DNA from: Spelaeicoccus albus
GTDB lineage: Bacteria; Actinomycetota; Actinomycetes; Actinomycetales; Brevibacteriaceae
Assembly (NCBI RefSeq): GCF_013409065.1
Contig: NZ_JACBZP010000001.1
Span: 2,294,001 to 2,358,000 of the forward strand
DNA length: 64,000 nt
Direction of reading: 5' to 3'
The notes beneath the pieces were generated by a model. That model searched no databases. It had not been told where the DNA came from and saw only the letters and a list, made by a program, of their open reading frames with translations. A program made the position numbers and the translations under genes. Position 1 is the stretch's first letter, and every line of letters starts with the position of its first letter. Below, piece after piece: positions 37,974-56,237 of this stretch.

Positions 37974-38082
37974 GTAGCCAGTCTGTCATGACCGTGGCGG
38001 TCGCCCGTGGAACCGTGCTTACTCGCGCCCACGCGGCGCCCTCAATTGCCAGGCCGTCACCCGGCACGGCAAAGTATGAAGC

Positions 38083-39066: not shown

Positions 39067-39068
39067 CC

Positions 39069-40403: not shown

Positions 40404-40443
40404 GACAACCGGGCCTCCTCGTGAAAGAATTCACAAGCAAGAC

Positions 40444-40449
40444 TACGAT
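40444..40449 (+). promoter_or_regulatory. -10 box of leaderless ndh
   Basis: TACGAT ends six bases before the ndh ATG; GTGAAA 17 bp further upstream matches four positions of the -35 consensus. Confidence 0.5.
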
Positions 40450-40455
40450 GAGACC

Positions 40456-41844
40456 ATGGCATTGATTCGAAACAGCAAACTTCGTCCCCGTATCCTCATC
40501 GTCGGCGGTGGCTATCTCGGCTTTGCGACTGCGCAGCGGCTGCAGAAGTCGGTCGCGCACGGCGAAGCAACTATCACGGTCGTCGACCCGCACCCGTATA
40601 TGACGTACCTGCCGTTCCTTCCGGAGGTGGCCGGCGGCTCGATCGAACCGCGCCACGCCCTGGTTCCGCTACGCCGTCACCTGCGCAAATGCGAAATCGT
40701 CAGCGGCAAGGTCACCAAGATCACGCACGCCGAGAAGTCGGTAGTTGTCGAGCCGGGCATCGGTGAGCCCTTTGAACTCGACTACGACCACATCATCATC
40801 GCGGCCGGAAGCGTGCCGCGCACCCTGCCGATTCCGGGGCTGGCCGAAGAAGGCATCGGGTTCAAGCAGATCGAAGAGGCAGTCGCGCTGCGCGATCGAG
40901 TGCTCACCCGGCTGGACGAGGCCGCGCTGATCGAGGACGACGCGGAACGGCGCAAGGCGCTCACGTTCGTCTTTGTCGGCGGCGGATTCGCCGGCATCGA
41001 ATCGCTTGCCGAGCTGCAGGATATGGCAAGCGACGCCGTCCGACACTATGACACGTTGACGGACGCCGACATCCGCTTCGTTCTGGTTGAAGCGCTCGGT
41101 CGCGTCATGCCGGAGGTCGGCGAGGCGCAGGCGCGTTGGGTTGTCGAATCGCTACGCGAACGCGGTGTGGACGTGTACCTGGAGACATTCCTCAAGAGCT
41201 GCGAGAACAAGCACATCGTGCTGTCGACCGGTGAGGAATTCGACGCCGACACAGTGGTGTGGAATGCCGGCGTCAAGGCCAACCCGGTGCTTGTCGACTC
41301 CGATCTGCCGATCGACGAGCGCGGCCGGTTGCAGGTTCGCGCCGATCTCCAGGTCGAAGACGACAACGGCAATGTCGTCGAAGGTGCCTGGGGCGCCGGC
41401 GACGTGGCAGCCGTGCCGGATCTGACCGGCGGCGGAGTTGGCGGCTATTGCGTGCCGAACGCCCAGCACGCCATCCGCCAGGCGCCGGTCCTGGTCCAGA
41501 ACGTTTTGTCGGCGCTGCGCGGCGGCGACGACTTCAAGCAGTACTCGCACAAGACGATCGGATCCGTTGCCGGACTCGGCGTCGGCAAGGGCGTCGCGCA
41601 GATCGGAGACTTCGAGGCGCGCGGCTTGCTGGCGTGGATCATGCACCGCGGTTACCACGGCTACGCAATGCCGACCCTCGAGCGTAAGGTGCGTTTGTTC
41701 GGCAACTGGTTCGTCGGGGCGCTGTTTGGCCGCGATGCCAGCCAGGTTGTCGACCTCGGCGACCCGCGCGGAGCATTCGTTGAGGCAGCTCACTCGAAGC
41801 CGGCCCCGAAGAAGGACACCAAAAAGGAGCCGGCCAAGTCGTAA
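40456..41844 (+). CDS. ndh: Type II NADH dehydrogenase (NDH-2)
   Basis: 462 residues. The FAD-binding motif ILIVGGGYLGFATAQRL (14-30) and the second, NADH-binding motif FVFVGGGFAGIESLAEL (about 174-190) flank the two-dinucleotide fold. The WGAGDVAAVPD motif closes the FAD site. The C-terminal amphipathic region (LLAWIMHRGYHGYAMPTLER) anchors the enzyme to the membrane. It passes electrons from NADH to menaquinone without pumping protons. The protein ends in a Lys/Pro tail. It has its own -10 box and a strong hairpin after its stop, so it is probably monocistronic. Confidence 0.93.
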   Translation: MALIRNSKLRPRILIVGGGYLGFATAQRLQKSVAHGEATITVVDPHPYMTYLPFLPEVAGGSIEPRHALVPLRRHLRKCEIVSGKVTKITHAEKSVVVEPGIGEPFELDYDHIIIAAGSVPRTLPIPGLAEEGIGFKQIEEAVALRDRVLTRLDEAALIEDDAERRKALTFVFVGGGFAGIESLAELQDMASDAVRHYDTLTDADIRFVLVEALGRVMPEVGEAQARWVVESLRERGVDVYLETFLKSCENKHIVLSTGEEFDADTVVWNAGVKANPVLVDSDLPIDERGRLQVRADLQVEDDNGNVVEGAWGAGDVAAVPDLTGGGVGGYCVPNAQHAIRQAPVLVQNVLSALRGGDDFKQYSHKTIGSVAGLGVGKGVAQIGDFEARGLLAWIMHRGYHGYAMPTLERKVRLFGNWFVGALFGRDASQVVDLGDPRGAFVEAAHSKPAPKKDTKKEPAKS

Positions 41845-41863
41845 GTAACCTCCGGCTTTGACA

Positions 41864-41903
41864 CGGCGGCTCGGATCGGGATTTCACCCGCTCCGAGCCG
41901 CCG
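41864..41903 (+). terminator. Terminator-like hairpin after ndh
   Basis: CGGCGGCTCGGA (41864-41875) pairs with TCCGAGCCGCCG (41892-41903), and an inner CGGG with CCCG, separated by one mismatch: a 16-bp stem with a six-base loop. No T-run follows. It separates ndh from the tRNA gene. Confidence 0.65.
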
Positions 41904-41942
41904 CGGCTGTGTCTGGCTAGACTTGACACTGTTCCATTGCAC

Positions 41943-42016
41943 GCCCCAATAGCCCAATCGGCAGAGGCAGCAGACTTAAAATCTGTTCAGTGTGGGTTCG
42001 AGTCCCACTTGGGGCA
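41943..42016 (+). tRNA. tRNA with anticodon TAA (Leu), short variable arm
   Basis: A 74-base cloverleaf. The acceptor GCCCCAA (41943-41949) pairs with TTGGGGC (42009-42015), discriminator A, CCA not encoded in full. The anticodon stem GCAGA/TCTGT closes the loop CTTAAAA, giving anticodon TAA, which reads UUA leucine codons. The variable region is only about five bases (TCAGT), whereas leucine tRNAs are class II with a long arm. The T arm GTGGG-TTCGAGT-CCCAC is normal. I believe similar short genes are annotated as tRNA-Leu in other Micrococcales; the charging identity is not certain. Confidence 0.85.
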
Positions 42017-42087
42017 CCGAGGCAAGACCGTGACCAGGTACGACAACGGCAGCACGGTTGTTGCGACGTCTAGTGGGAAGAAGCACC

Positions 42088-43446
42088 ATGCACACGTACG
42101 CGAAGCGTCGTGACCGAGCCGTCGCAGGGGTGGCGGCAACCCTTAGCGACGAATCGCCCGTCGTGGGACTGATCGATTTGGACCTTATCGATGAGCGTGC
42201 CGAGGAGTTGCGCAATGCCTTTCGCAACGATCAACCCGTGCTGCACACGATTGCCGCGAAAGCAATACCGCTCGGAGCCGTGCTCGCTCAGTGCGCAACA
42301 CGCGGAATGGGCTGCGAGGTAGCCAGTCCCGGGGAGCTCGAGCTGGCTCTCGCAACGGGGTTCAGTCCTGAAAACATAGTTTTTGATTCTCCGGCTAAAA
42401 CAGTCGGTGATCTTCGATCGGCTCTGAAGCTCGGTGTGGGTATCAATTTCGACAACTTCACCGAAGTCGCTCGTTTTGACGAGATCCTCGCTCAAGCTGA
42501 CGCGCTCCCCGAAAACGGCATGGGCTTGCGCATCAATCCTCAGTTAGCGCCGGGCAGCATTACGGCGATGAGCACGGCGACAAAGATTTCGAAGTTCGGA
42601 GTTGGCCTCGCCGACGAGGGAACCCGAGAGGAGATCATTTCCACATATCTTGAACGCAGCTGGATGAATCAAATACATGTTCACTCCGGATCTCAGGGCA
42701 TGTCCCTGGAACAATCCGCGACAGCCGTGCGCGTGATTGTTGAACTTGCCAACGAGATCAACGACCGAAGCGTCCAGCTTTACGGCACGCGACGGGTCAA
42801 GCGAATCGACATCGGCGGCGGGCTGCCCGTCAACTATTATTCTGACGAAGTGGCCCCGAGCTACCGGGAGTATCGCCTGATCCTTGAAGAGTTGGTTCCC
42901 GAACTATTCGACTATGAGCTCGTCACCGAGTTCGGACGATCCCTTGCCGCAAAATCGGGATCGATCCTCAGCCGCGTGGAATACGTCAAGAAAACAGGGG
43001 GACGGCGCATCGCTACAACCCATGCCGGCGTCCAGGTCGTGACCCGGACGGCGTATATGCCGAATGACTGGCCGCTCAGGGTGATTGCGCTGACCGCGGA
43101 CGGTGAGAGAAAGACCACGCCGGAAGAATTGCACGACGTAGCCGGGCCGGCCTGCTTTTCCGGGGACCTTGTCGCACAAGCGACGCTCTTGCCGCGACTG
43201 GACACCGGTGACACGGTTCTCATCCCCGATACCGGGGCGTACTGCTTCACCAGTCACTACTCGTACAACATGTTGCCCCGAATACCCGTGCTCGGCTATC
43301 GACAAAACGGCAGCGAGTTGGAGTACTTCCAGCTGCGAAAGCTCCAGACGACGGAGGACGTCGTCGCCGAAGCAGGGCCTCAAGAAGCCCCGCAAATCGA
43401 TCCATGCTCGGTCCGCGTCGGCGGTGCCATGGCATCGTCGAATTGA
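42088..43446 (+). CDS. PLP-dependent fold-type III decarboxylase (LysA-like)
   Basis: 452 residues from ATG 42088. The PLP lysine is Lys58 in TIAAKAIPLG. HVHSGSQG, the phosphate-binding DIGGGLP, TEFGRSL (replacing the usual EPGR), the catalytic cysteine in CFSGD and GAYCFTSHYSYN all follow the diaminopimelate/ornithine decarboxylase pattern. It would decarboxylate an amino acid; the variant EFGR motif argues against simple LysA. Base composition is visibly more A+T-rich than neighbouring genes, and a TTA codon occurs at residue 153. It lies 72 bp after the tRNA and has no biosynthetic partners, which suggests acquisition by transfer. Confidence 0.83.
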   Translation: MHTYAKRRDRAVAGVAATLSDESPVVGLIDLDLIDERAEELRNAFRNDQPVLHTIAAKAIPLGAVLAQCATRGMGCEVASPGELELALATGFSPENIVFDSPAKTVGDLRSALKLGVGINFDNFTEVARFDEILAQADALPENGMGLRINPQLAPGSITAMSTATKISKFGVGLADEGTREEIISTYLERSWMNQIHVHSGSQGMSLEQSATAVRVIVELANEINDRSVQLYGTRRVKRIDIGGGLPVNYYSDEVAPSYREYRLILEELVPELFDYELVTEFGRSLAAKSGSILSRVEYVKKTGGRRIATTHAGVQVVTRTAYMPNDWPLRVIALTADGERKTTPEELHDVAGPACFSGDLVAQATLLPRLDTGDTVLIPDTGAYCFTSHYSYNMLPRIPVLGYRQNGSELEYFQLRKLQTTEDVVAEAGPQEAPQIDPCSVRVGGAMASSN

Positions 43447-43465
43447 CGCACTCGCAGCAATTGCG

Positions 43466-44836
43466 TCAGAGGTTGGGTTTCACATCCTTCTTAAAGGCAT
43501 GTTGCAGCTGATCCTTGGCATCGGCCAGCGTCTCTTTCGGATCCGTGTTCTGGCTGAGCACTTTGATCAACCCGTCGTTCAGGACTTTTAGGCCGCTCGG
43601 GATGAACGCGAGCGCCCAGTCCTGCGAGCGAGTGTGCGGCAGTTGCTTGATCGCTGTGTCGAGCAAGGGGTTGGAGGCAATCAGCTTCTTCGTGTTCGCC
43701 GACTTGCGCAACGGCATGTAACCGGTGGCCTTGGCCAAGCCGACGGTGTTTTCGGGCGAGGTCAGGAACTTGATGAATCGTGCCGCGGCGACCTGCTCCT
43801 CCGGTGAGATGTCCTTTGGGATTGCCAAGCCGGCGCCGCCCGTAGGGCAGACATTGTCTGTCGCTTCGGGGCCGCCCGGCAAGAAGCCGACTCCTACATC
43901 GAACTTGCCCTTGGCCGCCTCGACAACACCGATAAGCCCTCCGGTTGAGCTGACGGTCGCCGAACAGGCTTCGGCGGACAAGTGATCGGTCGACGAACTC
44001 GAGGCCGTGACATTTGCCCACTTGCCTTCGAATACTCCCTTGCGGGCCCAGTCGGTCGCCTTGACTGCGCCGTCCGTATCGAGAGTGAGATCGAACTTCT
44101 TGCTGTAGGCACCGCCCCAGCCCCAGACCTTGTTTTCGAAGGTCCACGCAATGTAATCACCTGCGTAAACGAACTGTTTCTTGGTGCCCAGATCGGCCGA
44201 TTTGAGCTTCTTGGTCCACTCTTCGAATTCCATCCAGGTCTTTGGCGCGCGATCGGGAAGGCCGGCCTTCTTCCAATGTGATTTGTTGTAGTAAAAGAGC
44301 GGTGTCGAGCGGGCATACGGCACGCCCCATTGCTGGTTGTCGTACGAGTAGTCGTCCCACAGTGTGTCGTTGTAGTCGTCCTTGTCGATGTTTTCGGATT
44401 TCACGAGGGCATCGATAGGGATGATCGACCCGTTCAAGTAGTACTTGAACCACGTGTTCACGATCACGACGCCCGGCAGTCCGCCGCCGACTTGTGCGGT
44501 CTGGAATTTCTGCGCAACCGATGCGTAGTCCGAGCCGGCTGTCACGAGCTTGACCGTGGTGTCGCTCTGCTGTGAATTCCACTTGTCGACAACCTTCTGC
44601 TCATACGCCTGATTCGCTGCAGGGTGGTTTGACCAGAATTCGATCTTCTTGGCGGGTTTGACCCCCGAGTAGTCCTTGGACCCGGTCGACTTGGTCGAAC
44701 CGCTGGCGCTGGTGGACAGGCCGGAACATGCGGCAAGCGCCGCCGCGGAGAGCCCGAGCGCACCTCCGCCAAGAAGCTGGCGCCTGCGGATACTGGAGGA
44801 TTGCGCTTCATGTCGAGTCAAGAGAAGGGAACTCAT
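43466..44836 (-). CDS. Tat-exported ABC solute-binding lipoprotein (UgpB-like)
   Basis: 456 residues from ATG 44836. The signal combines a twin-arginine motif (SIRRRQLLGG, 15-24) with a lipobox ending at Cys37 (AALAAC). The mature part is a family 1 carbohydrate/glycerol-phosphate binding protein: KIEFWSNHPAANQAYEQKVV at the start, KTWMEFEEWTKKLKS in the hinge, PTGGAGLAIPKDISPEEQVA near the C-terminus. It should capture a sugar or glycerol-phosphate at the outer membrane face. No permease or ATPase gene is next to it, so the rest of the importer must lie elsewhere. It is more A+T-rich than the average gene here and converges on the decarboxylase with a 19-bp gap. Confidence 0.88.
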   Translation of the reverse strand: MSSLLLTRHEAQSSSIRRRQLLGGGALGLSAAALAACSGLSTSASGSTKSTGSKDYSGVKPAKKIEFWSNHPAANQAYEQKVVDKWNSQQSDTTVKLVTAGSDYASVAQKFQTAQVGGGLPGVVIVNTWFKYYLNGSIIPIDALVKSENIDKDDYNDTLWDDYSYDNQQWGVPYARSTPLFYYNKSHWKKAGLPDRAPKTWMEFEEWTKKLKSADLGTKKQFVYAGDYIAWTFENKVWGWGGAYSKKFDLTLDTDGAVKATDWARKGVFEGKWANVTASSSSTDHLSAEACSATVSSTGGLIGVVEAAKGKFDVGVGFLPGGPEATDNVCPTGGAGLAIPKDISPEEQVAAARFIKFLTSPENTVGLAKATGYMPLRKSANTKKLIASNPLLDTAIKQLPHTRSQDWALAFIPSGLKVLNDGLIKVLSQNTDPKETLADAKDQLQHAFKKDVKPNL

Positions 44837-45281
44837 GAAATTGCCTTTCGTAGCCGGAGTCGTTGTACTGCGACGTTCTACGGCTGAGTAAGGCTGCAGA
44901 GCTTCACAGTGGCCGATCCGAGGCGCCAAGCTCTCGTGCTCTCTATCGCGAGGGTTCCGGCGTCGTCATCCGTCCGGATCATCCGTATTAGCTTTATCAC
45001 AGATTGCCGCGCCTCAGGCGGCCAATTCGGTCGACTCATCTTCACTTTTCCTGTGGCATCACGAGTGCCCGCGACAACAACGGTTGTGGAACCGCGATTG
45101 GTGGAGGAGCTGAATCGATTGATGTGACCGTCGAGAATCGAGCGCAGCAATCGGAGCGAATATGATGCGCGTTTCAGCTATTCCTCCTCGTACGTCGCAG
45201 GCTACGGCTCACCGACGTTCTCAAGACTTATCATGGTCGGTGTCGCCGAGACCGTCGTCGACTCGACGAGAAGGGAACGCT
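44837..45281. other. 445-bp gap between lipoprotein and MBL genes
   Basis: The two flanking genes diverge from this gap. A minus-strand frame at 44878-45150 (90 codons) ends 41 bp before the lipoprotein ATG. Its C-terminal two-thirds looks protein-like (VIKLIRMIRTDDDAGTLAIE) but I recognise no family. It could be a remnant of a gene lost next to the lipoprotein. TTATCA near 45226 may be a -10 for the downstream hydrolase gene. Nothing else is evident. Confidence 0.4.
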
Positions 45282-46058
45282 ATGGCGTGGAATGCCGGCC
45301 CCAACACGTATGAAGTTGCCGCGGGCGTCTTCCACGTTGTCGGCCCCGCATCGAACTGGACGATCCTAGTCGAGGCCGGCCGGCCCGCGCTGATCGATTG
45401 CGGCTACCCCAGGGACGACGCGTACGTTCTCGGGTCGCTCCGACACCTTGGCTTCGAGCCTTCCGATGTCGTCGGCATTGCCGCCACGCACGGGCACGTG
45501 GACCATATCGGGCTGGCCCACAAATTCCAAAAGCGCTACGGCACTCCGGTTTTCGCTACCGGCGACGAAGCGGCGAACGTCACGCGCGAAGTCGTCGACC
45601 AGGTTGCAGTGCCGGAAGTTCTGCGACAATCGTGGCGGCCGCGAGTTGCGCTGTGGCTCACTCACGCAATGCGCAGCGGCGCCACCGATCCGGTCGGTGT
45701 CTCGAGAGTCACCGAGGTGGTTCCGGGCAGGCCGCTGGATTTGCCGCTGCACCCCGTCCCCGTTTCAGTCCCGGGGCATACTCGCGGGCACACGAGTTTT
45801 CTACTCGAAGATCGGGACGTTCTTATTGCCGGGGACGCGCTCATGACTGCCCACCCGACCACCGGTACCACCGGGCCTTCGCTGCTACCGGACATGTTCA
45901 ATTACGATACCGAACTGGCATTCGCCAGCCTGGACGTCATCGCCGATTACGACACGGCCTTGCTGCTTCCCGGACACGGGCTTGCCGACGACTCCGGGTC
46001 CAAAAAGGCCGTCGATCGCGTCCGGCGCGCATGGCACGCACGTGTCGGCGGTCGTTGA
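45282..46058 (+). CDS. MBL-fold metallo-hydrolase
   Basis: 258 residues from ATG 45282, after GAGAAGGGA. The metallo-beta-lactamase signature THGHVDHIG has His70, His72, Asp74 and His75. The second-site ligands are VPGHTRGHTSF, the aspartate in IAGDALM and LLPGHG. This is the glyoxalase II-like branch; substrates may be thioesters, lactones or phosphoesters. No partner gene indicates which. A frame opening at 45162 lacks a ribosome binding site and is not used. Confidence 0.87.
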   Translation: MAWNAGPNTYEVAAGVFHVVGPASNWTILVEAGRPALIDCGYPRDDAYVLGSLRHLGFEPSDVVGIAATHGHVDHIGLAHKFQKRYGTPVFATGDEAANVTREVVDQVAVPEVLRQSWRPRVALWLTHAMRSGATDPVGVSRVTEVVPGRPLDLPLHPVPVSVPGHTRGHTSFLLEDRDVLIAGDALMTAHPTTGTTGPSLLPDMFNYDTELAFASLDVIADYDTALLLPGHGLADDSGSKKAVDRVRRAWHARVGGR

Positions 46059-46085
46059 CTCGGACATGCGACCATGGCACAGTTC

Positions 46086-46099
46086 GATTGTCGACAATC
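46086..46099. promoter_or_regulatory. 14-bp perfect palindrome before permease gene
   Basis: GATTGTCGACAATC is its own complement and lies 73 bp upstream of the permease start. A TTGACT (46055-46060) with CACAGT 17 bp downstream could be a promoter whose start site this palindrome would cover. The TTGTC/GACAA half-sites resemble GntR-family operators such as the one at 59115, but without the central base. Confidence 0.45.
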
Positions 46100-46172
46100 A
46101 TTCTTCGGGTCTTTCCGATGATGCCCGGACCCGGCCGCACGACGCACGTCAGTGCACGGAAAGGACCGCTTG

Positions 46173-47624
46173 ATGGACGTTCCCGCCGAGCAACAGCAGT
46201 CGAACCACGGCGGCCGGGCGCCGCACGGCCCCAAAAAGCTGCGGTCGCGGCATATCACCATGATCACCCTCGGCGGGATCATCGGATCGAGCCTTTTCGT
46301 CGGCTCGGCCAACATCATCCGTTCAGTCGGTCCGACCGCCGTCGTATCCTATCTTGTGGGTGGGCTGCTCGTCTATCTGGCCATGCTCATGCTCGGCGAG
46401 ATGGCGGCCGTGCGGCCCGCCGTCGGGTCGTTCATGGAATACGCCCGAGTCGGCCTCGGCGATTGGGCCGCCTATCTGGTCGGTTGGCTTTACTGGTATT
46501 TCTGGGTGGGTGTTCTGGCCTACGAGGCCGTGATCGGCGGGCATACCTTGAACGGCTGGTTCCATGGCTTGCCTCCGTGGGCCTGGTCGTTATTGCTCCT
46601 CGGCGTGTTCGTCCTGACCAACCTGATTTCCGTTCGCTCGTTCGGCGAAACCGAATTCTGGCTGGCCAGCATCAAAATTGCCGCAATCGTCGTCTTTTTG
46701 GGCGCCGGTTTGCTCTTCGTCCTCGGACTATGGCCGGACAGTAGCTTCTCGGTTCACAATCTCTGGCAGCACGGCGGCTTCGTCCCGCAAGGCTTCGGTG
46801 CAATCCTGACCGGTGTAGCTTTGGTCATCTTTTCGTATTTCGGCACTGAAATCGCGGTGATGGCCTCCGCCGAATCCGAAGATCCGCCGGCGGGGATCCG
46901 GCTTGCGACAATCACAGTCATCTGGCGCGTGCTGCTGTTCTTCGTCGGATCGATTTTGATCATCACGATGGTTGTGCCGTGGGACAAGCTGCCGGCAGCG
47001 ACGGGGGTGGCCAATGCGCCGTTCACTCTCATGTTTGAGAAATTCGGAATTCCGGCCGCCTCGATCGTCATGGAACTCGTCATCTTCTCGGCCGTCGTGT
47101 CGGTGCTCAACTCGGGGCTTTACTCCGCGTCGAGGATGTTCGCGTCATTGGCCGACAAAGGATTCGCGCCAAAGATCGTCAGCCGCAAGGCACGCAATGG
47201 CGTGCCGGTCGTCGCCGTGTTCGCATCAACTGCGGGCGGAGTGATCGCGGCAATTGCCAACTTCATTGCGCCGAACTCGGGCATCTTTGACTTCATCATG
47301 AATTCCGCCGGCCTTGTCGCCTTGTTCGTGTACGTGTTCATCGCACTCACTCATATGAGGCTTCGCCAGAAGATGACCGCGCACGAAGTTGCCGGACTGA
47401 AGGTCAAGGTGAAGCTCTTCCCTTGGCTCAACATTTTTCTGATCGCTGCCGTGGCAGTCGTCGTAGTAATCATGCTGACCACTCCTGTCGGACGCACTCA
47501 AGTGTGGACCAGTTTGGTCGCCACCGGCGTCCTGCTGCTCTTTTGGCCGTTGGTGCGCCGGAAGCTCGCTGCCATGCGCGGTGAAAACACTCTCGAAGCG
47601 GACCGGTCGAATCACTCCGCTTGA
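46173..47624 (+). CDS. Amino acid permease (APC superfamily)
   Basis: 483 residues with about 12 membrane helices. The first helix carries the substrate-binding loop ITLGGIIGSSLFVGSA, and helix 6 the FSYFGTEIAVMASAESEDP motif, both typical of the amino acid transporter (AAT) family (GabP/AnsP/RocE). It is probably a proton-coupled importer; the exact amino acid cannot be assigned. ATG 46173 is preferred because AAGGA lies seven bases upstream. An upstream palindrome may be its operator. A hairpin centred on GAGAATTCTC follows about 55 bp after the stop. Confidence 0.88.
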   Translation: MDVPAEQQQSNHGGRAPHGPKKLRSRHITMITLGGIIGSSLFVGSANIIRSVGPTAVVSYLVGGLLVYLAMLMLGEMAAVRPAVGSFMEYARVGLGDWAAYLVGWLYWYFWVGVLAYEAVIGGHTLNGWFHGLPPWAWSLLLLGVFVLTNLISVRSFGETEFWLASIKIAAIVVFLGAGLLFVLGLWPDSSFSVHNLWQHGGFVPQGFGAILTGVALVIFSYFGTEIAVMASAESEDPPAGIRLATITVIWRVLLFFVGSILIITMVVPWDKLPAATGVANAPFTLMFEKFGIPAASIVMELVIFSAVVSVLNSGLYSASRMFASLADKGFAPKIVSRKARNGVPVVAVFASTAGGVIAAIANFIAPNSGIFDFIMNSAGLVALFVYVFIALTHMRLRQKMTAHEVAGLKVKVKLFPWLNIFLIAAVAVVVVIMLTTPVGRTQVWTSLVATGVLLLFWPLVRRKLAAMRGENTLEADRSNHSA

Positions 47625-47675
47625 TCGCCGGACGCCCGCCCGGGCGCCGAGCCATCGACGAATTTCGGAAAATAA

Positions 47676-47699
47676 CTGGCACGGAGAATTCTCTCGTGC
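47676..47699 (+). other. Hairpin downstream of the permease gene
   Basis: GCACG and CGTGC bracket the palindrome GAGAATTCTC, forming a stem with one bulge, about 50 bp after the permease stop and 70 bp before the small peptide gene. It may terminate the permease transcript or control the peptide. Confidence 0.35.
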
Positions 47700-47768
47700 T
47701 TATCATGGTTCCACAGCGCGCCGCGGATAAATTCCGAAAGGCGCGAAATGTCAGGAAAGGGGTGAACC

Positions 47769-47867
47769 GTGAAAATGACTAATATTGATGGATTGATCGC
47801 TAATGCGACGGGCATCTGCGCCGCGAATCTCTGCGCGCCGGTTCGCCCGCTGCTCGTCCGCGGCTAG
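47769..47867 (+). CDS. 32-residue two-cysteine peptide (unrecognised)
   Basis: A 32-codon frame from GTG with an AAAGGGG ribosome binding site six bases upstream. The product begins MKMTNIDGLIANATG and ends with a two-cysteine segment, ICAANLCAPVRPLLVRG. It is followed within 25 bp by a hairpin with a T-run, so it looks like a complete small transcription unit. The shape (hydrophilic front, short Cys-containing basic C-terminus) could be an amino-acid-responsive leader peptide, a regulatory peptide or a RiPP-like precursor. No maturase or cysteine biosynthetic gene is nearby. I do not recognise a family. Confidence 0.5.
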   Translation: MKMTNIDGLIANATGICAANLCAPVRPLLVRG

Positions 47868-47888
47868 CGGGCACTCAGCCTCACCGTC

Positions 47889-47924
47889 ACGAAGCGCCGT
47901 TTCCGAGCGACTTCGTTTTCTCTT
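47889..47924 (+). terminator. Rho-independent terminator after the peptide gene
   Basis: ACGAAGCG pairs with CG-a-CTTCGT (47908-47916) and is followed by TTTC and TCTT. The right half, CCGAGCGA (47903-47910), can alternatively pair perfectly with TCGCTCGG (47926-47933), so two mutually exclusive structures are possible. Confidence 0.6.
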
Positions 47925-48007
47925 ATCGCTCGGTTCGATGGATCCTACGCAAATACCGGTCCGTCACTGCGCCGAATAACGCCAATTTTCAACAAAGGAC
48001 CAAATTC

Positions 48008-48205
48008 GTGCTTGACCGCGCCCAAAAATCGTCACAAACATTCCGAAAAAAGAAAAGAGCTAAGTCCATGAAACCATTGACCGGCCGAATACATCGGTTC
48101 TCCTCCTGGCTGGATTCGTTCGCCGATCGAACCTCCTCGCAGGCAGAATACGAACGCGCTCGCGAAAAGACACTCCTCTGGATGGCCATGAACGGCATCC
48201 GCTGA
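48008..48205 (+). CDS. 65-residue basic protein (hypothetical)
   Basis: A 65-residue frame from GTG, with AAAGGA eight bases upstream. The N-terminus is strongly basic (SSQTFRKKKRAKSM); the rest is predicted helical and charged (TSSQAEYERAREKTLLWMAM). An internal ATG at 48068 would give a 45-residue product. There is no signal peptide, membrane helix or recognised domain. Its context is the small peptide gene upstream and the PRC-barrel gene downstream. The good ribosome binding site and the lack of an overlapping gene support it as real; its function is unknown. Confidence 0.5.
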   Translation: MLDRAQKSSQTFRKKKRAKSMKPLTGRIHRFSSWLDSFADRTSSQAEYERAREKTLLWMAMNGIR

Positions 48206-48283
48206 CGGGACGGGTGTCGCCGCGAGCACGGACTGGGTACTGTGCATAATGACAAGAACGCGAACCGAGAGAAGAGGTGCGAG

Positions 48284-48640
48284 ATGTTCGAAGCGGACGA
48301 TATTCGTGACTGGCAGGGCGAGGACGTTGTCGACGTCAACGGATCGAAGATCGGCCCGTTCGAGCAGACGTATTTCGACAACACGACCGAGCAGCCGGTC
48401 TTCGCGACGGTTCGCATCGGCCTTCCGGGGAAGCGCCGATACGTCTTCGTGCCACTCGACGGTGCGCGCGTCTCGCCGAAATACGTGCGCGTCCAATGGG
48501 AAAAGGACGTCGTGAAGGAGGCCCCGTACTTGGAGCCGGAAGGCGAGCTGACTGGCGACCAGGAACCCGAGATCTTTGAACACTTCGGGTACGAATACCA
48601 CCGCGGAGCGACCGGCGAACGGCGGCTCGGTCGGCGCTGA
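48284..48640 (+). CDS. PRC-barrel domain protein
   Basis: 118 residues from ATG 48284 (AGAGG seven bases upstream). The sequence IRDWQGEDVVDVNGSKIG followed by the beta-strand segments PVFATVRIG and RRYVFVPLDGARV is a PRC-barrel, the fold of RimM and photosynthetic reaction-centre H subunits. The C-terminal part (EIFEHFGYEYHRGATGERRL) is common in actinobacterial stand-alone PRC proteins, often described as stress-related. Its molecular partner is not known. Confidence 0.82.
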   Translation: MFEADDIRDWQGEDVVDVNGSKIGPFEQTYFDNTTEQPVFATVRIGLPGKRRYVFVPLDGARVSPKYVRVQWEKDVVKEAPYLEPEGELTGDQEPEIFEHFGYEYHRGATGERRLGRR

Positions 48641-48719
48641 GGGCGTAGCGTCGGGAATAAGGGCGAACGTCCATCCGGCGCACGCCCGATGGACGAATGC
48701 TCGCACTGAGGCGGCGGAT

Positions 48720-49709
48720 ATGGTTCGTGCACGTGAAACGCGTAGTCCGGACGACGGGTCGGAGCCGAACGCGCAACCGGACCGAGCCGAGGCGTCACGA
48801 GTCGGACTACGGATAACACGATCGCTCGGCACTGCCGCCGGGGCCGTAGTCGGCGCATGCGGCGTTCTCGTCGCCGAAGCCTCCTGGACCAGACGGCACA
48901 CGGGGCCGAAGCTGCGAGTCGTCGCCCCGGACGACTCCGGGCTTTTCGACCCCGGCTACGGCGGCGAGCCGATTCGCTTGACGATCCTCGGCGATTCAAA
49001 TGCGGCAGGAGTCGGAGTGCCGCACGCCGACGAGACAGTCGGCTCGCACCTGGCCGCCGGTCTGGCAACCGCAGCCAAGCGTCCCGTCGCCCTATGCAAC
49101 GTCGCTTTTTCGGGTGCCCAAACGCGCGATCTTGCCGCTCAAATCGCCGGTGCTGCGGTCCCAGCCGGATGGCCGGACGTGTGTCTGATAGTAGTCGGCG
49201 GCAACGACGTGATGCATCTTCGATCGATCTCCCGGTCCGCGCAATTGCTGGGGGAGTCGATCCGTCTCTTGCGTTCCCGTGGGGCGGAGGTCGTGGTCGC
49301 CACGTGTCCGGACATGGGTGCCGAACGACCATTATTGCAGCCGTTGCGGCTGATTGCGGGACGCTACGGCAAGCTGCTTGCACTGTCGCAAACCATCGTC
49401 GCCCTTCGTGCCGGAGCCCGGACGGTGTCGCTCGTTGATTCGCTCGGGCCGATATTCCGGCATTTCTCGGCGGAAATGTTCGCAAGTGACAGATTCCATC
49501 CGTCGCCGGCGGGTTATGCGCTGGCGGCCGACGTGCTACTTCCGAGCGTGTGTGCGGCGTCCGCGCGCTTTATTGCCGAAAAGAAGCCGTACCCGCATCG
49601 CGTCTACCGCAGGCCAAAGCGGCGGCCGGCGACGCGCGTGGCGTTTTGGCTCGCCCGTCGACCGACGCTAGGACAAATGTCCTGCCGAACAAAGGACATT
49701 CGACACTAA
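48720..49709 (+). CDS. SGNH/GDSL-family hydrolase
   Basis: About 329 residues. After a charged N-terminus, a hydrophobic segment (ITRSLGTAAGAVVGACGVLV, 32-51) may anchor or export the protein. The SGNH blocks follow: block I ILGDSNAAGVG with nucleophile Ser93, a central GGNDV (block III), and the catalytic Asp/His in DRFHPSPAGY. It would be an esterase or acyl hydrolase acting on the cell envelope or lipids. The basic C-terminus (RRPKRRPATR) is unusual. The start ATG is the most plausible of several; its ribosome binding site is weak. Confidence 0.82.
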   Translation: MVRARETRSPDDGSEPNAQPDRAEASRVGLRITRSLGTAAGAVVGACGVLVAEASWTRRHTGPKLRVVAPDDSGLFDPGYGGEPIRLTILGDSNAAGVGVPHADETVGSHLAAGLATAAKRPVALCNVAFSGAQTRDLAAQIAGAAVPAGWPDVCLIVVGGNDVMHLRSISRSAQLLGESIRLLRSRGAEVVVATCPDMGAERPLLQPLRLIAGRYGKLLALSQTIVALRAGARTVSLVDSLGPIFRHFSAEMFASDRFHPSPAGYALAADVLLPSVCAASARFIAEKKPYPHRVYRRPKRRPATRVAFWLARRPTLGQMSCRTKDIRH

Positions 49710-49765
49710 CGAGCAAAGCATGCGGAGCCTACGTTGAACACATCAACTCCGACGAAGGGTCTGAC

Positions 49766-50251
49766 ATGTTCGCTTCAACCCGCTCCAACACACCGGAATC
49801 GGCGGATCGTACGCGCTGCCGAATGCTTCGCATCTGTACGATCTTTGCGGCTGCATTGATCGACGCCGGCATCTGGTTTGCCGCCGTGCGCGTCGGCGAC
49901 GTGCAACTCGTTTATGCCGCCGGCCCGGAAACCACGGCCATTGGCATCGCGTCGGTGGTCGCGGCGGTAGTCGTGACGGGCGCCCTCGCGTGGGGACTGC
50001 TGGCGGCACTCGGGAAAATCACCCGGCATGCAGCGGCGGTCTGGACGACGATCGCCGTGGCGGTGACGGCGGTGTCGCTGATCTCCCCGCTGACGACTGC
50101 CCAGAACCGGCCGGCCATGACGATACTCGTCTGCATGCACGTTGCCGCAGCTGTTGTCGTCATCACCGGATTCAGAATCAGCGCGTCACGGACCGAAGGG
50201 AGGCGCGAATCCCGCCGCCGCGCGCACGCCGTCGAAGCGGCATCCTCATGA
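49766..50251 (+). CDS. DUF6069-like four-helix membrane protein
   Basis: 161 residues from ATG 49766, AAGGG seven bases upstream. Four hydrophobic segments are visible: ICTIFAAALIDAGIWFAAV, TTAIGIASVVAAVVVTGALA, AVWTTIAVAVTAVSLISPL and AMTILVCMHVAAAVVVITGF, with the VQLVYAAGPE loop between the first two. The order resembles the small actinobacterial DUF6069 proteins. Function is unknown. The C-terminus is short and basic, hence probably cytoplasmic. Confidence 0.65.
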   Translation: MFASTRSNTPESADRTRCRMLRICTIFAAALIDAGIWFAAVRVGDVQLVYAAGPETTAIGIASVVAAVVVTGALAWGLLAALGKITRHAAAVWTTIAVAVTAVSLISPLTTAQNRPAMTILVCMHVAAAVVVITGFRISASRTEGRRESRRRAHAVEAASS

Positions 50252-50404
50252 GCCTGACCGATCGTCCGGCTTGGTCGACCCGGCTCTGCCGGACGCGGCC
50301 GGCCGGTCCGTCGACCGGCGGGTCGGCGCCGCGGGCACCGAATTCATACGAAATGCTCAGCCCTGGCACGGGGCGAAACGTCGGAATCGGCAGGAGACGA
50401 GGCG

Positions 50405-50410
50405 TATCGT
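50405..50410 (+). promoter_or_regulatory. -10 box of leaderless PBP gene
   Basis: TATCGT ends six bases before the GTG start of the PBP gene, which has no usable ribosome binding site. This geometry decides the GTG 50417 start over an out-of-frame ATG at 50415. Confidence 0.5.
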
Positions 50411-50416
50411 ACAGAT

Positions 50417-52840
50417 GTGGTTTCTCAAGGCAAATCGGCAGGCAGCGCACTTGGCGCCTTCTTCGGATTCATCGGAATCAGCTGCGTGGTCGGCGTCCTG
50501 ATGGCCGGCGTCGGCATCCCGGCGGCGGGTGTGGCAGCCAGTGGAACGAAAAGCGGCATCAAAGTGTTCAACTCGCTCCCGGCGACGCTGTCCGAAAAGC
50601 CGCTGGCGCAAAGCAGCACCATGTTGGCGGCTGACGGGTCGGTCATTGCCAAGTTCTACTGGGAGAACCGGATCGAAGAGCCGTTGTCGAAAATCTCCAA
50701 GACGGTGCAGGACGCGACGGTCGCCACCGAGGATTATCGGTTCTTCCAGCACGGCGGGGTCGACCTGCAGGGGATCGCCCGGGCCGCCGTCCACGATGTG
50801 CTGTCTCCCAATCTTCAAGGCGCGTCGACCCTGACGCAGCAATACGTGAAGAACGTTCTGGTCGAGCAGGCCGCGGAAGGCGGCGATTCGAAGAAGGCGG
50901 CGGCCCGGGTCGCCAAGGTGACCGACTCGTCCGGGATGTCGGGGATATCTCGCAAACTTCGGCAGGCCAAACTGGCGATCGCCATTGAGAAGAAGTACAG
51001 CAAGAAGGAAATCCTGAACCGGTATCTGAACATCAACAACTACGGAGGCAGTCCCCGGCAGTACGGCGTCGAGGCCGCCAGCAGGCATTTTTGGGGAATT
51101 CATGCCAGCAAACTGTCGATTCCGCAGGCGGCCTTGCTGGCCGGTATCGTCAAGGACCCCAGCGCTTTCAACCCCGAAACCCATCCGAAGGCCGCGCTCA
51201 ACCGGCGTAATACGGTGCTGCATTTAATGCACGAGCACGGGTACATCAATGCTTCGCAATACGCCCAAGCAAAGAAGACCGGCCTTAACCTCAATATTCA
51301 CGAGACGTCGAACGGTTGCGCTAACGCCGGCATTTCCGCCTACTTCTGCGACTACGTCGAACAGACGATCGCCACGTCGCCACAGTTCGGCAAGACGGTG
51401 AGCGATCGGCTCGGATTGCTCACGCGCGGCGGCCTGACCATCAAGACGACACTCGACCCGAAGCTCGAACACTCGGCTCAGCGGATCGTTTCAGGGCGTG
51501 TGCCGGACACCGACCCGTCGGGAGTCGGGCAAGCCCTCACCACTGTGCAACCCGGAACCGGAAAAGTGCTCGCCATGGTGCAGAACCGCAAATATTCGGT
51601 GGCGCCCAAACCCAAGGACGGGTACACATCAGTCAACTACAACGTCGGGAAGAAGCTGCACGGCGGGAGCGGATTCCAGGTGGGATCCACGTATAAGGTG
51701 TTTACCTTGGCGGCGTGGCTGAAGGACGGTCACACTCTGCACGATCGGGTCGACGCCACGCGGCGGAACTTCCCGGCGAGCTCGTGGACCTACAAGGGCT
51801 GTCCCAAGAACGCCGGAGCGTGGGACCCTCACAATTCGGAAGACGGCGAAGGCACGAGCTCGATGTCGGCGCTGACTGCGACTGTGCAATCGGTGAACAC
51901 GGCGTTCGCCGCCATGGCCAACGAGATCAACATGTGCGATATCCAAGGCGCGGCAAAAAAGCTCGGCGTCCGGTGGGGCAACGGGAAGTCGTTGGACGCC
52001 AAGAACGCCAACGGGTCGATCCCCGCGCTCTTCCCGTCATCGGTTCTCGGCACAGTGACCACGACGCCCCTGGACATGGCGTCGGCCTACGCGGCGTTCG
52101 CCGACAAGGGCAAATACTGCGCACCCGTCGGCATCACGTCGATCACCAACGCGAAAGGCAAGAAACTGCCGGTGCCCAGCGCGAACTGTCATCAGGCAAT
52201 TTCAAAGAAAATCGCCACCGGCGTCGCCTGGGCCCTCACCCAGACATTCAACGGGGGCACCACCGAGGATTTGAAGATCGGCATGCCGGCCGGAGCAAAG
52301 ACCGGTACGACGAACTTCTCGGTGGGCGCCGGATGGCTCGACGGATTCACCAAGGGCATGTCGACGGCCGTATGGACGGGCAGCCCGACCGGTAACGATC
52401 CGGCGTTGGGCAATGGGCGGATACCGGTTGGCGGGCACTATTACGGCCCGAACTACGGTGCCGCGATCTCCGGGCCGACTTGGCAGGCCTTCATGAAGCA
52501 AAACGCCAAACGGTACAAGGTCGGAAAATTCGCCAAACCCGGCAACGACATCCTCGGGTATACGCCGCCGCCCGAACCGCCCGAGCCGACGACCAACCCC
52601 GACCAGGAATCCAACGATTCCGGTGAGCCGTCCTCGCCGTCGTCGACAAGTTCGTCGCCGTCATCGGATCCGACCACGACGGAGCCGTCCTCGCCGTCGT
52701 CTTCGAAGTCCAGCCCGCCGAGTCGGACGACGGCTCCGACCACGAAGCCGACGAATGCCCCTCATCCGCCACCGTCGCATCCGGTCCACAACGGTCATGG
52801 CGGCAACAACGGCCACGGTCACGGCCACGGCGGACATTAG
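50417..52840 (+). CDS. Bifunctional class A penicillin-binding protein
   Basis: 807 residues. One N-terminal membrane helix (about 12-40) precedes a GT51 transglycosylase with catalytic Glu105 in TVATEDYRFFQHGGVD and GASTLTQQYVKN (136-147). The transpeptidase has SxxK as GSTYK (about residue 424), SxN as SVN in TVQSVNTAF, and KTGT near residue 630. It polymerises and crosslinks peptidoglycan. After residue 720 the tail is Pro/Ser/Thr-rich and ends in a Gly/His/Asn-rich run (HNGHGGNNGHGHGHGGH), which looks like a wall-exposed spacer and possible metal-binding end. A convergent terminator hairpin follows. Confidence 0.94.
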   Translation: MVSQGKSAGSALGAFFGFIGISCVVGVLMAGVGIPAAGVAASGTKSGIKVFNSLPATLSEKPLAQSSTMLAADGSVIAKFYWENRIEEPLSKISKTVQDATVATEDYRFFQHGGVDLQGIARAAVHDVLSPNLQGASTLTQQYVKNVLVEQAAEGGDSKKAAARVAKVTDSSGMSGISRKLRQAKLAIAIEKKYSKKEILNRYLNINNYGGSPRQYGVEAASRHFWGIHASKLSIPQAALLAGIVKDPSAFNPETHPKAALNRRNTVLHLMHEHGYINASQYAQAKKTGLNLNIHETSNGCANAGISAYFCDYVEQTIATSPQFGKTVSDRLGLLTRGGLTIKTTLDPKLEHSAQRIVSGRVPDTDPSGVGQALTTVQPGTGKVLAMVQNRKYSVAPKPKDGYTSVNYNVGKKLHGGSGFQVGSTYKVFTLAAWLKDGHTLHDRVDATRRNFPASSWTYKGCPKNAGAWDPHNSEDGEGTSSMSALTATVQSVNTAFAAMANEINMCDIQGAAKKLGVRWGNGKSLDAKNANGSIPALFPSSVLGTVTTTPLDMASAYAAFADKGKYCAPVGITSITNAKGKKLPVPSANCHQAISKKIATGVAWALTQTFNGGTTEDLKIGMPAGAKTGTTNFSVGAGWLDGFTKGMSTAVWTGSPTGNDPALGNGRIPVGGHYYGPNYGAAISGPTWQAFMKQNAKRYKVGKFAKPGNDILGYTPPPEPPEPTTNPDQESNDSGEPSSPSSTSSSPSSDPTTTEPSSPSSSKSSPPSRTTAPTTKPTNAPHPPPSHPVHNGHGGNNGHGHGHGGH

Positions 52841-52915
52841 CGGGTTCGCCCGTGCGCGCTCCGTTCCACGTGGGTCCAGCTCTTCCGCGTGAGCGTATTG
52901 CACGTTCTACGCCCA

Positions 52916-52938
52916 CGCGGAGGGCCGATCCCTCCGCG
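52916..52938. terminator. Bidirectional hairpin between PBP and hydrolase genes
   Basis: CGCGGAGGG (52916-52924) pairs with CCCTCCGCG (52930-52938) around a five-base loop, in the 104-bp gap between two convergent cell-wall genes. There is no T-run on either side. Confidence 0.6.
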
Positions 52939-52944
52939 GTGTGT

Positions 52945-54126
52945 CTAGTACCAGTTGTGGCTGACTTCGTGCGACCATGCGCCGCACGGCGATCCATAGC
53001 TGGCGCGAATGTAGCCGAGGCCCCAATTGACCTGCGTGCGGTAATTGGTGCGCCAATCGGAGCCGGCGCTGGCCATCTTGCTGGCCGGGAGTGACTGCGG
53101 GATGCCGTAGGCGTGGCTTGACGGGTTGACGGCGTACGTATCCCAGTCCGACTCCTGATTCCACAGGTTGAGCAGACATCCGTATTGGCTGCTGCTCCAG
53201 CCGTAAGCCGCTAGCCGGGACCGCGCGTATGCCCGCGCCGTGGACGGGCTGCCGCCGCCGTACGACGGCGTGCTGGTGCTTCCCGACGAGCTGGACGACG
53301 CCTGCTGGGCACGCCTGGCGGCGGCGCGTTCGGCGGCTCGGCGGGCAGCCGCTTGCTGGGCGCGGTACGCCTTACGCGCCGCCACGCCGTCCTGATAGCG
53401 CTTTTCGACCTTGACGCTGCGATGCTTCAACGTCGCCAACTGTGCCACGAGCGTCTTGCTGCGTTTTTTCGCCTTCGCGACCTCGTGATCGGCCGCGGCC
53501 TTCGCCGCCTGCGCTGCTTCGAAGGCGCGATGGGCGGCGTCGGACAATTTCTTGCGTTCGCCGGCGGCCACCTTTGCCTGCGCCGTCAGCGATTCGGTGG
53601 ATTTCTTGGCTTGTTCGGCCCGAGCCAAGAGCTTGGAATTGCGCGAGCTGAGCAAACCGAGGTCGCTTCTGGCATCCAGCATGCTGTTCGCGCGGCTCGG
53701 ATTGAGCATCAAGGCCATGGACGGCGAAGGCGTCGATCCGCCGTTCTTGTACGACTGGACGGCGACGCGGCTGACCTTCTTCTGCATGGCTGCCTGATCG
53801 CGTTCGGTCTGCTTGAGCTTGTCCTTCAACCGCTCCATCTTGGCGGTCGCGGCGTCCAGTCTGCTGCGGGCCGTATCGTATTCGGCGCCCTTCTCGACGG
53901 CTTCGTCGCCGAGCTTGGCGGCCTTGGCCTGCACATGGTGCAAAAGCTTTGTGATGGTTCCGATCTCGGATTTCGTCTCGCTCACGTGCTCCCTGGCGTG
54001 CTTGACGTCGCTCCAGGTCGGATACTTCGATTTGGCAGCCGCCGGCGCGGTCAGCAAACCCGTGCCGAGCACCACGCCAAGGGCGATGGCCAGCACGCGG
54101 TGAGCACGTGAACGACGAAATAGCAT
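52945..54126 (-). CDS. Coiled-coil murein hydrolase, transglycosylase-like C-terminus
   Basis: 393 residues from ATG 54126 (GGAGG seven bases upstream). A signal peptide (AIALGVVLGTGLLTAPAAA) is followed by a long coiled coil (about 40-280) of the PcsB/RipA-like type. A Ser/Gly linker then leads to a C-terminal lysozyme-like domain with LLNLWNQESDWDTYAVNPSS and HAYGIPQSLPASKM, where the Glu in NQESDW is the likely catalytic acid. It ends in SHNWY. It probably cleaves peptidoglycan at the septum, with the coiled coil holding it inactive. It converges on the PBP gene, so wall synthesis and cleavage genes are neighbours. Confidence 0.86.
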   Translation of the reverse strand: MLFRRSRAHRVLAIALGVVLGTGLLTAPAAAKSKYPTWSDVKHAREHVSETKSEIGTITKLLHHVQAKAAKLGDEAVEKGAEYDTARSRLDAATAKMERLKDKLKQTERDQAAMQKKVSRVAVQSYKNGGSTPSPSMALMLNPSRANSMLDARSDLGLLSSRNSKLLARAEQAKKSTESLTAQAKVAAGERKKLSDAAHRAFEAAQAAKAAADHEVAKAKKRSKTLVAQLATLKHRSVKVEKRYQDGVAARKAYRAQQAAARRAAERAAARRAQQASSSSSGSTSTPSYGGGSPSTARAYARSRLAAYGWSSSQYGCLLNLWNQESDWDTYAVNPSSHAYGIPQSLPASKMASAGSDWRTNYRTQVNWGLGYIRASYGSPCGAWSHEVSHNWY

Positions 54127-54243
54127 AGGGGTACCTCCGCAGGAAAGCCTACGGGCATGTGGGGGGAAATCCCGGTAGATTCCGGTAGCGCGCCGCAACT
54201 TTTCAAACAGCGGCGCCGCTCGCACCGAATGCTCCGAGTTGAA

Positions 54244-55167
54244 TTAGACCTGCGGCATCACCCTCCGTGCAATCAGCTCCAGATGGTCGAGATCCTGCAG
54301 ATCCATGATCTGAAGGTACACCCGTTCGACGCCGTCCGCGGCCAAAGCCTGCAAACTTTCGGCGGCTTCGTCCACCGTGCCGGCAATTCCCGCTCGGCGC
54401 AGTTCGGCAGGATCGCGTCCGATGGCCTCGGCCCGGGAGGCGAATTCGGCTTCGGTGCGTCCGACGACGGCGATCATGCTGGTCGAGTAGGTCAGCGTGT
54501 CGGGATCGCGCTCGATGGCTTGGCAGGCCTCGCGCACGTTCCGGAACTTTGCAGATATGTCGGCGCGATCGGGGAACGGCAAATTGAACTCGCCGGCGAA
54601 CCGGGCGGCAAGCGCCGGCGTCCTGCTCGGACCGCCGCCGCCGACGATGACGGGCAGCGTGGCTTGGACCGGCGTGGCCAGACCGGGGCAATCGACGAGC
54701 GAATAGTGTTCGCCGTCGAAATTGAATCGTCCGCCGGACGGCGTGTTCCAGATCCCCGTCAGGATCTCGAGTTGTTCTTCGAGCATGCCGAATCGGCGAG
54801 CCGGGAACGGAATGCCGTAGGCCTCGTGTTCGCGCCGATACCAGCCGGTGCCCAGACCGATCTCGACGCGGCCGCCGGACATCTGATCGACGCCCGCGGC
54901 TTGGACGGCCAAGATTCCGGGCCATCGATACGTGACGGAGGATACGAGCGTGCCCAGCCGAATCCGCGATGTTTCCCGTGCCAGGCCGGCCAGCGTCGTC
55001 CACGCATCGGTCGGCCCGGGCCGACCATCCGTGTGATCGCCCATATGCAGGTAGTGGTCGGAACTGAAGAACGCGTCGAAGCCGAGGTCTTCGGTAGCGC
55101 GGGCGACGGCAAGCAGATCGTCGTACGTGGCACCTTGTTGGGGTTCGGTGAAGATGCGAAGTTTCAT
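54244..55167 (-). CDS. LLM-class F420-dependent oxidoreductase
   Basis: 307 residues of the luciferase-like TIM barrel. The N-terminal MKLRIFTEPQQGATYDDLL, FSSDHYLHMGDH, IGLGTGWYRREHEAYGIPFP and PVIVGGGGPSRTPALAARFA fit the F420-binding LLM subgroup. The substrate is unknown. The gene has its own TAGGCT box six bases before the ATG and is divergent from the first aldo-keto reductase gene. Confidence 0.87.
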   Translation of the reverse strand: MKLRIFTEPQQGATYDDLLAVARATEDLGFDAFFSSDHYLHMGDHTDGRPGPTDAWTTLAGLARETSRIRLGTLVSSVTYRWPGILAVQAAGVDQMSGGRVEIGLGTGWYRREHEAYGIPFPARRFGMLEEQLEILTGIWNTPSGGRFNFDGEHYSLVDCPGLATPVQATLPVIVGGGGPSRTPALAARFAGEFNLPFPDRADISAKFRNVREACQAIERDPDTLTYSTSMIAVVGRTEAEFASRAEAIGRDPAELRRAGIAGTVDEAAESLQALAADGVERVYLQIMDLQDLDHLELIARRVMPQV

Positions 55168-55173
55168 GTGCTC

Positions 55174-55179
55174 AGCCTA
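55174..55179 (-). promoter_or_regulatory. -10 box of leaderless LLM gene
   Basis: On the minus strand TAGGCT ends six bases before the ATG at 55167; no ribosome binding site is present. Confidence 0.5.
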
Positions 55180-55220
55180 AGCGTGCGCGACTCGCCCGAT
55201 GGCCGGAGCGTGCGCAGGAA

Positions 55221-55226
55221 TACTCT
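55221..55226 (+). promoter_or_regulatory. -10 box of leaderless AKR gene
   Basis: TACTCT ends six bases before the ATG at 55233. A GAAGG directly abutting the start is too close to act as a ribosome binding site. Confidence 0.45.
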
Positions 55227-55232
55227 TGAAGG

Positions 55233-56237
55233 ATGGATTACCGATACCTCGGCCACAGCGGCCTGAAAATCTCCGAAATCACGTACGGCAACTGGCTCAC
55301 GCACGGCTCACAGGTGGAGAACGACGTCGCCACCGAATGCGTGCATGCTGCGCTGGATGCCGGCATCACGACGTTCGACACTGCCGACGTCTACGCGAAT
55401 GGCGCCGCCGAAGAAGTGCTCGGCAAGGCACTGGCCGGTCAGCGCCGCGAATCGTTGGAGATCTTCACGAAGGTGTACTTCCCGGTCGGTCCGGCCGGAC
55501 CGAACGACACGGGCCTTTCGCGTAAACACATCATGGAAGGCATCGACAATTCGTTGCGCCGATTGCAGACCGACTACGTCGACCTGTACCAGGCGCACCG
55601 GTTCGACGTCGAGACGCCGCTCGAGGAGACCATCGCGGCATTCGCGGACGTCGTGCGCGCCGGTAAGGCTCTCTATATCGGCGTTTCGGAGTGGCCGGCC
55701 GACAAACTGCGCGCCGGCCAGGAGCTGGCACGCCAGGCGGGCTTTTCCATTGTGTCGAATCAGCCGCAGTATTCGGCGTTGTGGCGGGTGATCGAGGGGG
55801 AGGTCGTGCCGGCGTCGCGCGAGCTCGGCATCAGCCAGATCGTGTGGTCGCCCATGGCGCAGGGCGTGCTGTCCGGCAAGTATCTGCCGGGCCAGGCAGC
55901 GCCCGCGGGCTCCCGCGCCACCGACGACAAGGGCGGCGCCAAGACCATCAAGAGCCTTCTGAACGACGATCTGCTCACCCGCGTGCAGAATTTGAAGCCC
56001 ATTGCCGACGAGCTCGGGCTGAAAATGTCGCAGTTGGCGATCGCGTGGGTGTTGCAGAACGACAATGTGGCAGCTGCCCTGGTCGGGGCCTCGCGTCCGG
56101 AACAGATCGCGGAAAACGTGCAGGCCGGCGGCGTCAAGATCCCGGACGATGCCATGGCGAAGATCTCCGACACCCTTGGCGATTCGGCAGTGACGGATCC
56201 GTCGAATATCGCCACGCCGAAAAACCGGCTGGCTTAG
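55233..56237 (+). CDS. Aldo/keto reductase, potassium-channel-beta type
   Basis: 334 residues. The N-terminus MDYRYLGHSGLKISEITYGN, the active-site aspartate and tyrosine in TFDTADVYANGAAEE, the lysine in TKVYFPVG, and YQAHRFD and SEWPADKL place it in the AKR family near KvAP-beta/YghZ-like NADPH reductases. It reduces aldehydes or ketones; the substrate is not known. It is convergent with the second AKR gene, with a 25-bp gap. Confidence 0.89.
   Translation: MDYRYLGHSGLKISEITYGNWLTHGSQVENDVATECVHAALDAGITTFDTADVYANGAAEEVLGKALAGQRRESLEIFTKVYFPVGPAGPNDTGLSRKHIMEGIDNSLRRLQTDYVDLYQAHRFDVETPLEETIAAFADVVRAGKALYIGVSEWPADKLRAGQELARQAGFSIVSNQPQYSALWRVIEGEVVPASRELGISQIVWSPMAQGVLSGKYLPGQAAPAGSRATDDKGGAKTIKSLLNDDLLTRVQNLKPIADELGLKMSQLAIAWVLQNDNVAAALVGASRPEQIAENVQAGGVKIPDDAMAKISDTLGDSAVTDPSNIATPKNRLA

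Follow-up and report, generated by a model that had tools for sequence, protein, structure and literature searches.

A short open reading frame with a near-consensus Shine-Dalgarno sequence and a terminator-like hairpin in Spelaeicoccus albus: a candidate lineage-restricted small-protein gene

The window analyzed here, a 64,000-nucleotide stretch of the Spelaeicoccus albus genome (NZ_JACBZP010000001.1, positions 2,294,001 to 2,358,000), contains an amino-acid permease gene whose stop codon lies at 47624, followed in turn by a 32-codon open reading frame (ORF), a hairpin with a T-tail, and a doubtful, orphan 65-codon frame at 48008-48205 (+). The 32-codon ORF occupies 47769-47867 on the plus strand, with a GTG start, an alternative start at the ATG at 47775, and a TAG stop codon ending at 47867. 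The positions originally given for this ORF, its ribosome-binding site (RBS), the GTG start, the T-run hairpin, and an alternative pairing of that hairpin all hold in the sequence. Beyond the 65-codon frame, the products of the downstream genes match PRC-barrel, GDSL lipase, and transglycosylase/transpeptidase profiles. Over 46173-48205, the GC content is 0.596 in the permease gene and 0.53-0.59 across the peptide region and the 65-codon frame, versus 0.646 for the window. The 144 nt between the permease gene and the ORF (47625-47768) fold at -56 kcal/mol against a shuffle mean of -47.1 kcal/mol (z -2.43, with 1 of 200 shuffles as stable). A search of the region against Rfam, these 144 nt included, returned nothing at the gathering threshold or at E <= 5, and a scan of 46000-49500 for sigma-70-type promoters found none.

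The ORF combines a strong translation signal with a mild codon signal. Just 5' of the GTG at 47769 lies the near-consensus Shine-Dalgarno (SD) sequence AGGAAAGGGGTGA (47753-47765, +), whose duplex with an assumed anti-SD, rather than one taken from this genome, is computed at -17.2 kcal/mol. None of the 44 long genes of the window, each given its best start within the first 50 codons, has an SD as strong (these reference genes are our own calls, 42 made by a filter on length and GC3 and two added by hand), and only 0.05% of 4000 random 20-mers from the window match this duplex. Likewise, not one of 400 dinucleotide-shuffled 383-nt regions yielded, on either strand, an ORF of at least 32 amino acids with an equally strong SD. 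When both strands of the 64 kb were scanned for ORFs of 15-60 amino acids with an SD of -13 kcal/mol or below, just two were recovered, one of them being 47769-47867, which scores -16.4 kcal/mol in the narrower SD window of that scan. The second, at 24035-24169 (-), has 44 codons, two Cys residues, and an SD of -14.5 kcal/mol, and is mostly antisense to the start of the gene at 24054. At up to three mismatches, the SD-start context has no further copy in the same genome. As for codon use, the frame scores 6.6 bits versus -9.7 and -6.1 bits in the other two frames, a value reached by a fraction of 0.0004 of 5000 random sequences when the window-wide composition serves as the control and, under the stricter control of dinucleotide-shuffling the ORF itself, by 3.4% of the shuffles. 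The translation signals thus stand above chance, in keeping with the good RBS and GTG start that had been proposed from the sequence. Because its SD is stronger than that of any of the 44 genes and its codon use is acceptable, the ORF is probably translated.

The hairpin that follows begins 22 nt past the stop codon and, together with its T-rich tail, spans 47889-47924 (+). Its stem (47889-47916), interrupted by two bulges, folds at -12.8 kcal/mol, with 7 of 200 shuffles folding equally well, and it runs into the tail TTTCTCTT at 47917-47924. It is not among the predictions of a consensus terminator scanner. A scan of the window recovered 55 merged T-tailed hairpins at -8 kcal/mol or below, of which 22, mostly within genes, are at -12.8 kcal/mol or below; at this rate, about 1% of 57-nt stretches would be expected to hold one. 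The T-run hairpin predicted directly after the frame is present at -12.8 kcal/mol and is probably an intrinsic terminator, plausible though of modest strength. At -35.0 kcal/mol, a textbook terminator between two gene ends is much the strongest T-tailed hairpin in the window; it lies at 61741-61830 on the minus strand, with its T-tail at 61778.

The predicted 32-residue product is mildly hydrophobic (GRAVY 0.69) with a net charge of +2, and its two Cys residues, Cys17 and Cys22, are encoded by single codons four codons apart. A single-sequence AlphaFold model, built with no alignment, places helices at residues 5-22 and 26-30 (mean pLDDT 75.8, pTM 0.35). The peptide matched nothing in Pfam, NCBIfam, PHROGs, PADLOC, or the PDB sequences. 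The suggestion that it might be a signalling peptide or a small modified peptide found no positive support, and no modification enzyme family, as would be expected beside a ribosomally made modified peptide, was recognized among the 13 neighboring gene products (36525-56237).

Relatives were sought in three overlapping samples that include the source genome: 60 genomes from the family, 396 from the order, and 394 from the class. The genome collection represents the genus by one species, and the peptide was compared at the family level and beyond. With tblastn, the peptide matches 14 of the 60 family genomes at E <= 1, the source genome counted (best in another genome, E 0.047), 2 of the 396 order genomes at E <= 0.05 (own included; best other 0.037), and 2 of the 394 class genomes (own included; best other 0.045). 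Judged by these comparisons, the weak matches in all three samples are such as chance predicts. Searches of plasmid and phage records were empty at E <= 10, and, as far as tblastn is sensitive to a query of 32 residues, no convincing homologue was detected beyond the lineage. The original prediction had named a frame unconserved in close relatives as evidence against itself; such a lack of conservation is what the family, order, and class samples display, the genus being represented by a single species. Against 177 fetched loci, the best match other than the peptide's own had an E value of 0.002 (an MFS protein) and the best within permease loci 0.35. Across 78 of 80 permease loci (L108 and L114 were left out because the match ran to the contig end), seven short ORFs with an SD of -11 kcal/mol or below lie within 700 nt 3' of the permease, none of them similar to ours by eye.

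The DNA segment 47600-48290 has matches at E <= 1 in 57 of the 60 family genomes, the best in another genome being a 25-base match (5.6e-4), and the matches listed comprise short pieces only, with no extended match among them. In a genome of a sister genus, the relatives of the permease, PRC-barrel, and lipase genes lie far apart, and the neighborhood is not conserved. The closest permease among the matches listed is from Flexivirga (81% identity in the best segment), and a permease match at E <= 1e-60 is present in three of five family genomes searched (best 42%); because Brevibacterium permeases of 61-66% are also among the matches listed, we draw no conclusion on its transfer. The 65-codon frame, with an SD of about -6 kcal/mol, a GC content of 0.53, and a codon score that 1.9% of shuffles equal or exceed, has matches in 38 of 60 family genomes at E <= 1 (best other 0.0156), and a recurring match is antisense to an aminopeptidase P gene at the one locus checked. 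A 45-codon version starting at the ATG at 48068 is matched in 2 of 396 order genomes at E <= 0.01 (own included; the other 0.0097). Neither the full frame in the 60 family genomes nor the shorter version in the 396 order genomes has a convincing homologue, and 48008-48205 is perhaps no gene at all, or perhaps one that begins at 48068.

Several further foldings involve the ORF or the hairpin. A 10-bp helix with one G-U pair joins 47760-47769, that is, the RBS and the first base of the start codon, to distal codons of the same ORF at 47839-47848 (overall extent 47760-47848, +); its probability is 0.54-0.95 depending on transcript length, and 2% of 1000 shuffles give a duplex as strong. Gating of the RBS by the ORF's own codons was rejected, as the mean RBS accessibility of 0.26, against a gene median of 0.39, is not unusual, with 23% of the 44 genes as low or lower. 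A hairpin across the ORF end and stop codon (47845-47872, +; 47845-47851 with 47866-47872) has an energy of -18.9 kcal/mol when a 41-mer is folded alone, a value matched by 14 of 200 shuffles, but is outcompeted by the RBS helix in longer RNAs (probability 0.00-0.02). Finally, the right arm of the terminator can pair, as had been noted, with 47926-47933, forming an alternative hairpin at 47903-47933 (+) with a perfect 8-bp stem (47903-47910 with 47926-47933), a 15-nt loop containing the T-run, and an energy of -12.3 kcal/mol. This pairing exists, and 0 of 200 shuffles of a hand-picked 37-mer are as good, but the window has 39 perfect hairpins of at least 8 bp with loops of 3-20 nt, and because 0.23 of these are expected per 383 nt, the alternative hairpin is not beyond chance.

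The reading that we prefer, giving it about even chances on these sequence features, is that 47769-47867 is a genuine gene for a small protein, translated, confined to this lineage, and furnished with a terminator of its own. What has been computed for it is the near-consensus SD, the codon preference, a hairpin resembling a terminator, and the failure to detect relatives; from there we infer that it would be transcribed, translated at a high rate, and active as a 32-residue peptide. The transcript would probably be either a short separate unit or the last part of the permease mRNA, ending at the hairpin and T-run at 47889-47924, and the product, as a guess, might be a small helical peptide with a partner protein or the membrane as its site of action. 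Several points speak against such a gene, namely, the lack of a homologue on which selection could be tested, the empty promoter scan, and the weakness of the codon signal under the stricter control. The missing homologue and the codon score also lend some weight to a distinctly less probable but still serious reading, by which the ORF is non-functional and intergenic, its SD-like purine run is fortuitous, and the hairpin ends the permease transcript. In favor of this are also an RBS accessibility that is ordinary to low, an alternative hairpin within chance, and the fact that the locus was chosen post hoc; the strength of the SD and its spacing, on the other hand, are far beyond chance. On the evidence, the ORF does not stand above an ordinary orphan small ORF, though with so strong an SD it is well suited to attempts at detecting the product directly.

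A regulatory leader had also been suggested, in which ribosome behavior on a leader peptide or upstream ORF, such as stalling at the Cys codons, would determine, by way of the hairpins, whether the polymerase reads on into the PRC-barrel gene or the 65-residue frame. This has in its favor a short ORF with a strong SD just 5' of a T-tailed hairpin and an alternative pairing, the presence of two or more Cys residues in only 2.8% of 31-residue windows from the 44 gene products, and the Cys-run leader peptides upstream of cys operons in Actinobacteria that are mentioned in an excerpt of PMC1262725. We nonetheless hold it to be unlikely in view of partition-function folding of nascent RNAs, in which the terminator and the alternative helix were compared with and without ribosome edges, the ribosome being set at either Cys codon or at the stop codon (edges 47835, 47850, and 47880). 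In RNA ending at 47925, the terminator helix has a probability of 0.82-0.96 in four ribosome-free RNAs and 0.97 in each of the three with a ribosome edge, and it therefore dominates in 7 of 7 cases. Once the RNA extends to 47960, it is outdone by the alternative hairpin (0.91-0.98 versus 0.01-0.06), with the ribosome present or absent, and in RNA ending at 48205 both values are low, 0.02-0.10 for the terminator and 0.01-0.25 for the alternative. The two structures are mutually exclusive, and no upstream element, ribosome position included, selects between them; the competitor, which requires 47926-47933, is made only once the polymerase has passed the T-run, just as the original prediction had cautioned in finding classical antitermination not obvious. 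Attenuation is thus unsupported, for the terminator forms in nascent RNA whether or not a ribosome is placed on it. Of the hallmarks of a leader-peptide attenuator, the locus has the short ORF with an SD 5' of a terminator, its translation being itself predicted, and it lacks both an antiterminator dependent on ribosome position (in RNA to 47925, with no ribosome or any of the three edges) and a following gene whose metabolic role corresponds to the regulatory codons. The Cys codons are singles at 17 and 22 of 32 and form no run near the stop, the next frame is an orphan with a weak SD, and no cysteine or sulfur gene was recognized among the 13 neighboring products, consistent with the earlier remark that neither a cysteine gene nor a modification enzyme is adjacent.

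Less likely again is a small RNA or dual-function RNA ending at 47924, to which the ORF would be secondary: the upstream 144 nt are structured and the end is terminator-like, but there is no Rfam match, the DNA matches in the family are short pieces, and the strong SD favors translation. We consider very improbable a translated leader with Cys codons in which, after the polymerase has passed the T-run, 47926-47933 capture the right arm of the terminator and so undo it, with the pairing between SD and codons possibly feeding back on translation; if true, the read-through RNA would be protected from, or committed against, 3'-end formation, unlike in classical antitermination. Hardly credible at all is the reading of the ORF as what is left of the beginning of a larger gene, such as one for an MFS transporter, to whose first membrane helix the peptide bears a resemblance, since the class-level match (E 0.045, in genome G612), though it falls in an MFS_1 protein with 11 of 20 residues identical, is the one match at E <= 0.05 in 393 other genomes, below chance expectation, and the peptide has no Pfam match and its in-frame continuation past the stop is not MFS-like by eye. 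This 11-of-20-residue likeness, to the first helix of the product of L143:391-1713 (-), was taken as probably due to chance.

Canestrari et al. (2020) reportedly dealt with leaderless polycysteine ORFs of mycobacteria. Actinobacterial Cys leader peptides, in an excerpt of PMC1262725, have runs of Cys codons before cys genes, often without clear terminators, and leaders precede amino-acid genes in Streptomyces lividans in an excerpt of PMC8079986. Like the Cys leaders of the former, the present locus offers a short ORF with Cys codons in an actinobacterial host; unlike them, as far as the excerpt describes them, it has no Cys run, no recognized downstream cys gene, a strong SD rather than the leaderless start of the mycobacterial ORFs, and a terminator that in folding is uncoupled from ribosome position. 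With the trp and leuS attenuators of Actinobacteria, as excerpted from the same two sources, it has in common a small ORF followed by a hairpin with a T-run; it differs from what is described there in that no antiterminator overlaps the left arm of the terminator and the ORF, the competitor lies 3' of the T-run, and no matching amino-acid gene follows. With the leaders in these excerpts, the locus shares only the short ORF and the hairpin, and at most it would work as any small gene does that carries a terminator of its own. It is like the intergenic orphan small ORFs as a class in its unannotated size, its SD, and its lack of homologues, and unlike them in an SD above that of any of the 44 long genes of the window and in a terminator-like hairpin of its own.

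By itself, 47769-47867 has no bearing on a long-standing open question, and it presents a clear and cheap test case, with one genome and one start codon to consider. If translated, it would add to the small proteins that are specific to one lineage and whose initiation signals are very strong, a kind that annotation based on length can miss.
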